NCBI GenBank assembly: GCA_002694685.1
Contig: NZMW01000010.1
Location: 496,001-560,000, forward strand
From: Balneola sp.
GTDB lineage: Bacteria > Bacteroidota > Rhodothermia > Balneolales > Balneolaceae
DNA length: 64,000 nucleotides
Direction of reading: 5' to 3'
The notes beneath the pieces were generated by a model, which searched no databases, was not told the origin of the DNA, and worked only from the letters and a program-made list of their open reading frames with translations. Positions 30,477 to 35,098 of the stretch are shown here, piece after piece. Within the stretch, counting starts at the first letter, position 1, and every line of letters begins with the position of its first letter. The position numbers were made by a program, and so were the translations under genes.

Positions 30477-31535
30477 GTCATTGCGAGGAGCCTCATTTTC
30501 GAAGTAGGATTAAGGTGTATATCGACGCGGCAATCTCCCTTTAGGGCCTCCCAAATAGTTTATGGAGATCGCCACGTCGTATGGCATCGGAGCCTTCCGG
30601 TGATCCAGCCTCCTCGCGAAGACGAGTGTATTATTGAGGGTAATTAGTTCAATACAGCGTCTCCTCCCTTTTTCCAAAGGGGAGGAACAAGGAGGGGTTC
30701 GGGAAGGGCACGATGTTAGTTCAAAGAAAGTATCCTCTTCAAATATCTCGACCTCTTCTGTCTTTACTGAATCGAGTTCAGCACTGGCTTCCTTCGCAAG
30801 GAGAAGGACTCAGTGAAAAGCTTGGTAAATAATGCAGGCAAAGATCCTTCGGGAGTACCCTCAGGATGACTGGGGTGGTTTAAAATCCTCGTCATTGCGA
30901 GGAGGCCCGTGGTTGGAGCAGGTTCAAAATATATATCGACGCGGCAATCTCCCTTTAGGGCCTCCCAAATAGTTTATGGAGATCGCTACGTCGTAAGAGG
31001 TTAGGGCCTTCCAGAAATCCAGCCTCCTCGCGAAGACGGGTGTACTATTGAGAGTAATTAGTCCATAAAAGCGTCTCCTCCCTTTTCCAAAGGGGAGGAA
31101 CAAGGAGGGGTTCGGGAAGGGCAAGATGTTAAATCAAAGAAAGTATCCTCTTCAAATATCTCGACCTCTTCTGTCTTTACTGAATCGAGTTCAGCACTGG
31201 CTTCCTTCTCAAGGAGAAGTGCTCAGTGAAAAGCTTGGTAAACAATGCAGGCAAAGATCCTTCGGGAGTACCCTCAGGATGACTGTGGAGTTTTAAATAA
31301 GGCTAGTCATTGCGAGGAGCCCCGTGGTTGAAGCAGGTTCAAAATATATATCGACGCGGCAATCTCCCTTTCAGGCATCCCAAATAGTTCAGGGAGATCG
31401 CTACGTCGTAAGAGGTTAGGCCCTTCCAGAAATCCAGTCTCCTCGCGAAGACAGTTGTAATATTGAGGGTAATTAGTTCATTAAAGCGTCTCCTCCCTTT
31501 TCCAAAGGGGAGGAACAAGGAGGGGTTTTGGTAAG
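30477..31535 (+). repeat. Three tandem copies of a ~414-bp noncoding unit
   Basis: Units start at 30477, 30891 and 31306 with GTCATTGCGAGGAG; the third stops after about 230 bp. Each unit has a hairpin bounded by GTCATTGCGAGGAG and CTCCTCGCGAAGAC, a second palindrome (TCTCCTCCC...AAAGGGGAGGA) and a third element ending CCCTCAGGATGAC. The units are close to identical over most of their length. The 1.25-kb gap between the antiporter and the DEAD-box-like gene holds nothing else that I can support as a gene. Confidence 0.95.
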
Positions 31536-31544
31536 GCTTGAAAA

Positions 31545-31575
31545 CAAAAAAAGCGCAACTGAAACCAGCTGCGCC
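31545..31575 (-). terminator. Rho-independent terminator of the DEAD-box-like gene
   Basis: On the minus strand GCGCAGCTG-GTTT-CAGTTGCGC (one mismatch in the 9-bp stem) is followed by T7. It lies 43 bp after the stop at 31619 and separates the gene from the tandem repeat. Confidence 0.85.
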
Positions 31576-31618
31576 TTAAAATCTGTGTAATCACACAATC
31601 ACATAAATCTGTGATCTC

Positions 31619-33289
31619 TTAGTCAAACAGTTTTTTAATCCATCCAAAGGCACCGTCAGATTTACCGGGACTTGGCCGTTTTCTGTCTTTCTTACCTTCT
31701 TTTCCGCCTGAAAGTCCATCATAGCTTGGACGTGGAAGTCCGTTCGTAGATTTTTCCTTCTTAGGCTTTTTACGGCGCTTGCGGTCACGACTGTCATTAT
31801 CGTCGTTGTTGCTTTTGCTCTTACGTTTTTTGTTACTCTTATTATTACTTTTTTTAGAGCTCTTGCCGTTATTCGAAGACTTCTTATCGTTTTCTTTCTT
31901 CTTTTTCTTCTCTTTCACTTCTTCAGGAAGCGGGATTTCAGTTGGGGCAAATCCGACTTTCTCGACAATCTCGTCGATATCGTCTTTATCCATTTTTGAA
32001 ACCAGAGAAACCATGCGGGCTGCTTTTCCATTACCAACCAGCTCAGCACGATATTTATACTCTTCCACTTCGTTAGGCACATCATAGTTAATGACCTGCT
32101 TCACTTCATTCAGCTCTACTTCTGTAGCCGATAATCCGCCAACCAGTAGAATTTTCATGTCGCCGGAAGTGAATTTGCCGAAGCGTTCTTCGTAGTATTC
32201 TTCCTTTAACCCTTCATTGATGCTAACCACGCCCCATCCTTTTTTGCGGATGATGCGAAATAGTCGGTCAGTGGTGCGCTTAGATGCAGCAAATACGACA
32301 ATCTTGTCGGTTAAAGTATCTTCAAGGTGAGCAAGGAGGGTAGATATTTTTGCTCTTGGAGGCACATAGATATAAGCCTGAGTCAGATCTTTAGGAACGG
32401 TTGGGTCTGCTTCATCTTCAGATGAGGTGTCAGTTTCCGCTTCTTTTTCACTTTCTTCAGAACTTTGCTCTTCTTCCTCTGAATTTTTCTCAGGGTTCAG
32501 TACAACGTCTACACTTGCTTCAGCAAGCTTGCGGTCAATTTCATCCTGATTAAGAACAAATTCTTCCTGTTCTTTTTCCTCTTCCTGTGCATCTGCTTTA
32601 GACTCATCCTGATCTTCCGCCTTAGCATCAGAAGAATCTGATTTAGTATCTGCCGCAGCGTCAACATTAGATTCATCAAAGCCATGAACAATAGGATCTT
32701 TAAGGAAAGCCTCGGTAAGCTGTTGTGTAGGTTTGTTATTGGATTCAGAAAAAATAAGCACTTGAGGATCACCCTTAACAAGCTTCATGATGTCCTTTAC
32801 CCGGCTAACCAGGTTATAGTCCTCCATGCCGTGGGCTTCGTCAATAATGACAAGATCCACGTCGGTAAGCTTTAGCTTATTAGTATCCAGTATTTCAATT
32901 AACCGGCCGGGATTTGCAATCACAACCGGTGCTCCATCCTTAATCGCTTCTTCTTGTGCAGTGCGAATTCCTTTCATGGAAAGTGCCGCGCTGCTGATTT
33001 GTGCATGGTAGCCCATAGCCCAAACCGTTTCGTCTATTTCCTTAACTCGCTCAATGGATGGTGTTAATATTAAAACTCGTGTGCCAGCAATCTCTCCGTT
33101 CGTAGTCAGTTTCTGCAATGCAGGGATTAAAAATGCTCCATCATCACCAGCTTCATGTTTTACAAGCATATGTCTGCCTTGTAGCGCTGATGGGATAACT
33201 TCGTTCTGGAGAGGTGTGGGTTTTTCAATTCGTACGTCGGCCAGCCCGCTCAATAGTTCGGGGCTGAGGCCAAATTCTTCAAAAGACAA
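31619..33289 (-). CDS. Degenerate DEAD-box RNA helicase-like protein (probable pseudoenzyme)
   Basis: 556 residues. The Q motif is intact (FGLSPELLSGL..IEKPTPLQ, Gln28), and both RecA-like domains can be traced, split by a very acidic insert (about 207-298). The catalytic motifs are lost. Walker A reads KHEAGDDGA (44-52) in place of AxTGxGKT; motif II is DEAH (150-153); motif III is SES, not SAT; motif V RGxD reads GGLSATEVEL; motif VI HRxGRxxR reads YRAELVGNGKAAR. The C-terminal tail (about 460-556) is Lys/Arg/Ser-rich, as in RNA-binding tails of RhlE-type helicases. It is probably an RNA-binding scaffold without ATPase activity. The ORF is complete and the coding signal good, so it is unlikely to be a decaying gene. 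Confidence 0.85.
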   Translation of the reverse strand: MSFEEFGLSPELLSGLADVRIEKPTPLQNEVIPSALQGRHMLVKHEAGDDGAFLIPALQKLTTNGEIAGTRVLILTPSIERVKEIDETVWAMGYHAQISSAALSMKGIRTAQEEAIKDGAPVVIANPGRLIEILDTNKLKLTDVDLVIIDEAHGMEDYNLVSRVKDIMKLVKGDPQVLIFSESNNKPTQQLTEAFLKDPIVHGFDESNVDAAADTKSDSSDAKAEDQDESKADAQEEEKEQEEFVLNQDEIDRKLAEASVDVVLNPEKNSEEEEQSSEESEKEAETDTSSEDEADPTVPKDLTQAYIYVPPRAKISTLLAHLEDTLTDKIVVFAASKRTTDRLFRIIRKKGWGVVSINEGLKEEYYEERFGKFTSGDMKILLVGGLSATEVELNEVKQVINYDVPNEVEEYKYRAELVGNGKAARMVSLVSKMDKDDIDEIVEKVGFAPTEIPLPEEVKEKKKKKENDKKSSNNGKSSKKSNNKSNKKRKSKSNNDDNDSRDRKRRKKPKKEKSTNGLPRPSYDGLSGGKEGKKDRKRPSPGKSDGAFGWIKKLFD

Positions 33290-33548
33290 TGTTTACACCT
33301 CTTTCAATTTTGGCGTTATAGTTCAATTTTCAAAGATCGTGTCTTTCACTTAAAAGACTTTTCAATATACAAAAAATGTAAATGAAGCTCAGAGAATATT
33401 GAACATTGAACAGGAAGCATTGAATAATGAAGTTTGAGGGGGTTTTTGGGTATAAGATTAGAAAGTCATCTCGCGGCGAATGCCCGAGATCTGGATGTGC
33501 GATTAATTTCGATGTGTGATTAATTTCATTGTTATCAAAACTATCCAG

Positions 33549-34720: not shown

Positions 34721-35098
34721 ATGATTGAAAATGAATTATCAAAAATTATAATCGGAACTTCCATAGAAGTGCATAAAGAACTTGGGCCGGGACTGCTTGA
34801 ATCTATCTATGAAGAGGTTTTATTCTTTGAATTAGAACAAAGAGGGTTACACGTACAGAGGCAAGTTTCTGTCCCACTTATGTATAAAGAGATGCGGTTT
34901 GATACAGCATTTAGGATGGACCTGCTCGTAAATAATAGAGTGGTGATAGAGTTAAAAGCTGTGGAAAGTTTAGCGCCTGTACACTATGCTCAACTGCTTT
35001 CGTATTTGAAACTATCAAACAAAAAATTAGGCCTTCTAATCAACTTTAACAGTAAGTTGCTAAAAGATGGAATCCATCGAGTCGTAAATAATTTATAA
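34721..35098 (+). CDS. GxxExxY-family protein (PD-(D/E)xK nuclease-like)
   Basis: 125 residues. The name-giving motif is at 24-30 (GLLESIY). A nuclease-like Asp67...Glu77-x-Lys79 pattern is seen in RMDLLVNNRVVIELKAV, followed by a HYAQLLSYLKL helix and the family ending LLINFNSKLLKDGIHRVVNN. The family is usually annotated as hypothetical; the fold suggests a small PD-(D/E)xK nuclease, but no substrate is established. The gene is enclosed by imperfect inverted repeats of about 38 bp rich in CGCAGAG/CGCTGAG, the left 32 bp before the start and the right one base after the stop. That arrangement suggests a small mobile unit. Confidence 0.88.
   Translation: MIENELSKIIIGTSIEVHKELGPGLLESIYEEVLFFELEQRGLHVQRQVSVPLMYKEMRFDTAFRMDLLVNNRVVIELKAVESLAPVHYAQLLSYLKLSNKKLGLLINFNSKLLKDGIHRVVNNL

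Follow-up and report, generated by a model that had tools for sequence, protein, structure and literature searches.

We analysed a stretch of 64,000 nucleotides (hereafter the window) from a Balneolaceae genome, G000, whose genus has named relatives in Gracilimonas, and focused on a minus-strand gene whose product resembles DEAD-box RNA helicases. The 556-residue protein matches Pfam DEAD (E 1.4e-19) and Helicase_C (E 1.1e-10), each above its gathering cut-off, and the gene is laid out as follows.

31619..33289, minus strand: pseudohelicase coding sequence, 556 aa, TTG start, with an ortholog in 79 of 92 family genomes
32681..33289, minus strand: N-terminal RecA-like lobe, residues 1-203; retains the Q motif and DEAH, lacks motifs I, Ia and III
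33131..33163, minus strand: degenerate Walker A, VKHEAGDDGAF, residues 43-53; Thr of GKT in 0 of 62 orthologs
32399..32680, minus strand: acidic, variable, disordered linker, residues 204-297; pLDDT below 50 over most of it
31922..32398, minus strand: C-terminal RecA-like lobe, residues 298-456, the best-conserved part; retains INYDVP, with motifs V and VI in rewritten form
32111..32149, minus strand: rewritten motif V, LLVGGLSATEVEL, residues 381-393; motif V Arg in 0 of 62 orthologs
32015..32062, minus strand: rewritten motif VI, EYKYRAELVGNGKAAR, residues 410-425; retains the first Arg, lacks both finger Args
31742..31921, minus strand: basic Lys/Arg/Ser/Asn low-complexity tail, residues 457-516; model disordered beyond about residue 475
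31550..31577, minus strand: intrinsic-terminator-like hairpin of 12 pairs with a T tail, downstream of the coding sequence

The intact frame, acidic linker, Lys/Arg/Ser tail and separate terminator given in a preliminary description of this DNA were all confirmed, the terminator as the 12-pair hairpin at 31577-31550. Almost every complete ortholog starts with TTG; one has GTG. The linker has some of the highest dN values in the gene and is nearly missing from the Fodinibius and Rhodohalobacter orthologs. Also 3' of the gene, at about 31000-31120 and 31414-31530 of the window, is a pair of nearly identical intergenic stretches, each about 120 bases long.

To map the distribution of the gene we used a profile of the C-lobe and defined a strong copy as a match with E below 1e-45. 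Each of the 79 genomes carries a single strong ortholog, all ten genomes of the genus have an ortholog, and there was no strong copy in the order's other families or the remaining class (245 genomes). Some of the remaining family genomes contain extremely diverged forms that are identified by their tail, those of genera g21 and g15 (L097, L099) being examples; in members of g4, g21 and g15 the tail end is kept despite an almost unrecognisable N-lobe. The gene order SecG-MscS-SRAP-CPBP-pseudohelicase is constant in most members examined, and its MscS-CPBP-pseudohelicase core is still present in the most divergent genus, g4. In a tree that included active paralogs, rebuilt after an earlier version had contained badly filled rows (L082, L090), the orthologs formed a single clade (support 100/100). 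By sequence, this is a family-specific paralog of the DEAD-box RNA helicases that Balneolaceae have retained as a single gene. The gene is dispensable in some lineages: these searches found no ortholog in G012, a 98% complete genome, and the copy in G030 is frame-broken (L204, G030:C4:70528-71983). In G022 (L028) a frameshift has removed the tail, whose sequence continues in another frame; this change and the broken frame of G030 may be real losses or assembly errors. As a separate observation, a PDDEXK_3 (GxxExxY-type) gene lies between CPBP and SRAP in the window (34721-35098, plus strand) and likewise in L060, and had no match at this position in the more distant relatives examined.

Catalytic motifs were counted in 62 aligned orthologs and compared with ten aligned active paralogs, all ten of which have the catalytic residues. 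Walker A departs from AxTGxGKT throughout the orthologs, with the final Thr absent from all 62 and the second Gly present in only two. Motif III reads SES in the window protein (the Thr of SAT occurs in 9/62), and GGLSATEVEL stands in place of the ARGxD of motif V. At the positions of HRxGRxxR the His is never found, the first Arg is found in every ortholog, and the finger Args are found in 0/62 and 2/62. Other elements are kept: the F and Q of the Q motif (F3 and Q28) are each present in 62/62, as are N-Y-D-V-P of motif Va. Motif II is DEAH in the window protein and in the Gracilimonas/Balneola clade; its Glu occurs in 23/62 orthologs and is lost in the Rhodohalobacter relatives. The preliminary description had read the motifs correctly (KHEAGDDGA for Walker A, SES, GGLSATEVEL for motif V, and YRAELVGN for HRxGRxxR). 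Its claim that every ATPase motif is lost holds for Walker A, SAT, motif V and the arginine fingers, but not for the DEAH of this protein or for the universally kept Q-motif F and Q. The same losses occur in every one of the 62 aligned orthologs, and no aligned active paralog shows them, which excludes chance; by this alignment the motif loss is ancestral and fixed in the family.

Selection was measured within the genus. The C-lobe has a dN/dS of about 0.01, and at most about 0.04 where measurable; values were about 0.05-0.17 for the whole gene, below 0.1 for the tail end, and much higher for the linker. The N-lobe ratio is not to be taken literally because N-lobe dS is itself constrained. An AlphaFold2 model, based on 52 sequences from the window and its relatives, reached pLDDT above 90 across most of both lobes. 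Its N-lobe superposes on the eIF4A N-domain (1qva) with 1.5 A rmsd over 201 residues, and the predicted fold scores a Z of about 30 to eIF4A, DDX6 and CshA. The best PDB match to the full-length profile was 5ivl (CshA; E 7.7e-52), with eIF4A also matched. Both RecA lobes are predicted to fold. A comparison of orthologs had been proposed earlier, with the prediction that motif loss would be family-wide and under purifying selection; this is what we found, and in no ortholog was Walker A or HRxGR regained. Because the loss is conserved and nowhere reversed, the earlier proposal of a non-catalytic protein is well supported by sequence. As far as sequence can tell, this is a conserved pseudohelicase, with a helicase fold, lost catalytic motifs and retention by selection.

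The terminal ~40 residues, from LPRPSYDGLSGGKEG to GAFGWIKKLFD, are the best-conserved part of the tail and had no place in the preliminary description.

31694..31738, minus strand: conserved short motif LPRPSYDGLSGGKEG, residues 518-532; L518, P519, P521, L526, G528, G529 and G532 invariant in 52 orthologs
31622..31654, minus strand: C-terminal amphipathic helix GAFGWIKKLFD, residues 546-556; K552 and F555 invariant, L554 nearly so

The basic stretch is free to vary, and the end, LPRPSYDxLSGGRxG...G(W/F)(I/F)KKLF, is nearly invariant. In the predicted model residues 547-555 form a terminal helix that is amphipathic and cationic by hydrophobic moment. A similar amphipathic helix, KPAKGFWGLIKALFS, ends the main active DEAD-box paralog of the genus, and most active paralogs sampled from the order's other families end in similar helices. 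Across the C-termini that we compared (L080, L083-L085, L087-L093, L096, L098), active DEAD-box helicases of Balneolales commonly have a cationic amphipathic helix as their last element, in many cases preceded by a basic tail. The recurrence of these end-helices suggests that the active helicases may be docked as well, and the helix on the active paralog is the strongest hint, at the level of sequence, that the two proteins might dock in common. The RNase E/G of the window genome is a short, 567-aa form in which the long scaffold tail is absent, and RNase Y, considered as a docking partner, was rejected because it fell below the cut-off in this genome. With RNase E/G short and RNase Y below the cut-off, we speculate that helicase tails could do the docking.

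The same features could serve a protein-protein adaptor that does not bind RNA, in which the C-lobe surface and LPRPSYDxLSGGRxG would bind a partner (RNase G, the ribosome or RNA polymerase being candidates) and the DEAD-box fold would be a platform only, in parallel with Utp25 in the SSU processome. We regard such an adaptor as possible, though rather unlikely. Invariant stretches of the C-lobe include VPPRxKI and ASKRxxDRL, at positions atypical for active helicases, and motifs Ia and V no longer have their RNA contacts; in Utp25, an essential protein, the DEAD-box motifs can be dispensed with (PMC9539457). Against an adaptor of this kind, the long Lys/Arg-rich tail found in nearly all members suggests contact with nucleic acid, the Pro of motif Ib is present in 62/62 orthologs, and R369, the Arg at a QxxR-like position, is invariant.

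The 5' end of the gene unexpectedly carries a second set of conserved features, at the level of nucleotides; neither the conserved leader nor the synonymous-site constraint had been noted in the preliminary description.

33290..33338, minus strand: 49-nt conserved 5' leader with GATCTTTGAAAATTGAACTATAACGCCAAAA and an AGAGGTG Shine-Dalgarno (SD) sequence, near-identical within the genus
33341..33358, minus strand: leader hairpin; 6 of 6 aligned pairs changed on both sides, and also found by single-sequence folding
33238..33272, minus strand: hairpin inside codons 7-18; 98.3% of cells paired, 4 pairs with two-sided changes
33364..33377, minus strand: promoter-like TTTTTTGTATATTG upstream of the leader, at the same position in Gracilimonas, Balneola and several other genera
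32720..33289, minus strand: reduced synonymous divergence, codons 1 to about 190, by pairwise dS and codon identity

The leader is recognisable in Balneola and allied genera, and its 18-nt core occurs once in the genome. By analogy, TTTTTTGTATATTG resembles a Bacteroidota promoter of the -7 type. Searches of Rfam returned no element above its gathering score, and a phage origin of the 5' part found no match. The leader element GATCTTTGAAAATTGAAC (window 33321-33338, minus strand) resembles a boxA-like rRNA-leader stretch of relatives, GTTCTTTGAGAATATTGA (L189-L192); this boxA-like leader ('TCTTTGA...TTGAA') is only noted here because it is lost in Rhodohalobacter and Fodinibius.

Synonymous divergence was about 0.3 in codons 1-190, compared with about 0.7 elsewhere in the gene and in most neighbouring genes of the same species pairs. 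At invariant residues, codon identity in codons 21-190 exceeded that in the C-lobe and tail both in Gracilimonas (0.71 vs 0.48, p 1e-12) and in Balneola (0.95 vs 0.71, p 5e-20), and the contrast persisted after stratification by amino acid. The active paralog has background synonymous levels beyond codon 20, and the neighbouring genes have no such constraint. Several other causes were considered and set aside. The ratio of N-lobe to C-lobe dS was clearly below 1 at every divergence tested, and since the N-lobe rate is lowered in close and distant pairs alike, this looks like constraint and not recombination; in most pairs the N-lobe dN was at or above the C-lobe value. Codon composition was rejected, GC3 being similar between the lobes in most members tested. 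So was an antisense or alternative-frame gene: in most members tested the least interrupted antisense frame had about as many stops as synonymous shuffles, and a stop near codon 93 is common to most members of the genus. The leader, the early-codon constraint and the two covarying hairpins suggest that translation may be controlled through the mRNA.

In another reading the protein binds RNA and regulates itself: its main conserved target would be the mRNA that encodes it, and the leader, covarying hairpins and constrained first ~190 codons would make up the binding site. Such autoregulation is an unlikely account overall. It would explain why constraint in codons 21-190 is seen in Gracilimonas and Balneola and is missing from the active paralog and neighbours, why the hairpins covary, and why the SD sequence AGAGGTGT is exactly complementary to ACACCTCT in codons 25-27, both conserved and invariant. 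It fits poorly with Fodinibius and Rhodohalobacter, in which constraint is confined to the first ~40 codons, and with the finding that codons 1-100 show no excess of structure over synonymous shuffles. A further complementarity, of CCTCTCC (33208-33214, codons 26-28) with the conserved GGAGAGG about 115 nt downstream on the minus strand (33091-33097), never showed covariation, and in the window itself its last pair is lost. Being conserved without covariation, an SD/anti-SD switch built from these elements is only a lead.

The reading that we favour, although we would call it evenly poised between right and wrong, is that of a tail-docked, non-catalytic protein that binds RNA, acts as a partner or brake of an active helicase, and is itself controlled at translation. 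An RNA-binding scaffold or a regulator of a true RhlE-type helicase, as first proposed, would be plausible in this light. The pseudohelicase would be unable to close on ATP and hence would not unwind RNA. It may use the face of the C-lobe and its basic tail to bind RNA independently of ATP, and its terminal helix may dock where the active helicase is found, at the inner membrane or on a common protein partner. There it could hold RNA as a scaffold, or act as a brake for the active helicase, in RNA decay or ribosome assembly. The structured leader and the start of the coding RNA would probably control its synthesis at the level of translation. Several points weigh against this reading. Motifs Ia and V have lost their RNA contacts, and with them RNA binding in the classical DEAD-box manner may have disappeared. 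A likeness between amphipathic tails is no proof that the two proteins dock together, and the suggestion of membrane binding comes from analogy with the helices of MinD and FtsA. We also consider, more doubtfully, a pseudohelicase tethered by a MinD-like tail beside its similarly tailed active paralog, with the leader and first ~190 codons forming a functional RNA element, perhaps a translational switch or a binding site. Since codons 1 to ~190 and the leader would then double as an RNA element, the ATPase lobe would be kept partly for RNA and not for catalysis.

That the F and Q of the Q motif never vary could reflect continued binding of adenine or some other nucleotide. It is nevertheless very improbable that the protein still hydrolyses ATP or senses nucleotides with a rewritten pocket that reads adenine through the Q motif: F3 and Q28 are universal and DEAH is kept in the Gracilimonas/Balneola clade, but the Lys-Thr of Walker A and the arginine fingers are absent and the Rhodohalobacter relatives lack the motif II Glu. 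A decaying pseudogene or assembly artefact can be dismissed for this lineage, as the preliminary description had already argued of simple decay, because nearly all orthologs are long stop-free frames with dN/dS well below 1, invariant residues, a conserved leader and a terminator, even though the G030 copy is frame-broken, the G022 tail is lost by frameshift and some reduced genomes are without the gene.

Pseudohelicases are rare in the open literature: among 5.39 million open papers, three use the word. We found no description there of a bacterial DEAD-box pseudohelicase, a result that does not prove absence. Routine annotation of the Pfam type would label this protein a 'DEAD/DEAH box helicase', which would mislead across Balneolaceae. 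A family that has the fold and the tail without the engine would separate the binding and docking roles of DEAD-box proteins from those of ATP hydrolysis, and its 5' half appears to be under dual constraint, on protein and on nucleotides.

Among helicases, the nearest resemblance is to the CshA/RhlE/SrmB types, whose catalytic motifs are lost in the Balneolaceae protein. The best NCBIfam score, to CshA, was 150.9 bits against an equivalog cut-off of 646, and the cut-offs for CshA, RhlE, SrmB, RhlB and DbpA were not reached. The active paralog of the same genome (G000:C1:300283, L080) shares the TTG start and has a similar domain order and terminal amphipathic helix; it differs in having intact motifs, no LPRPSYDxLSGG and no synonymous constraint past codon 20. 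By analogy, the terminal helix is like those of MinD and FtsA, short, cationic, amphipathic and C-terminal, with a comparable hydrophobic moment, and common ancestry is not implied. For this comparison we used what we take to be the MinD and FtsA helix sequences. The C-terminal membrane-targeting helix (MTS) of MinD has been described (PMC6803595).

Utp25/Def, a pseudohelicase of the eukaryotic SSU processome (PMC9539457), likewise combines a DEAD-box fold with vestigial motifs, lineage-wide conservation and an intrinsically disordered extension. It differs in being eukaryotic and in having that extension at the N-terminus, and Pfam Utp25_C gave a weak match in 1 of 52 members (E 0.0015). PriA of Deinococcus radiodurans is reported to be an SF2 pseudohelicase whose ATPase motifs were lost in one phylum and which keeps nucleic-acid binding and a partner helicase (PMC4504706). 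PriA is a DNA-replication-restart protein and an orthologous replacement, whereas the Balneolaceae protein is a paralog additional to three DEAD-box proteins that are active. With no sign that either belongs to the same family, Utp25 and Deinococcus PriA are the closest known pseudohelicases.
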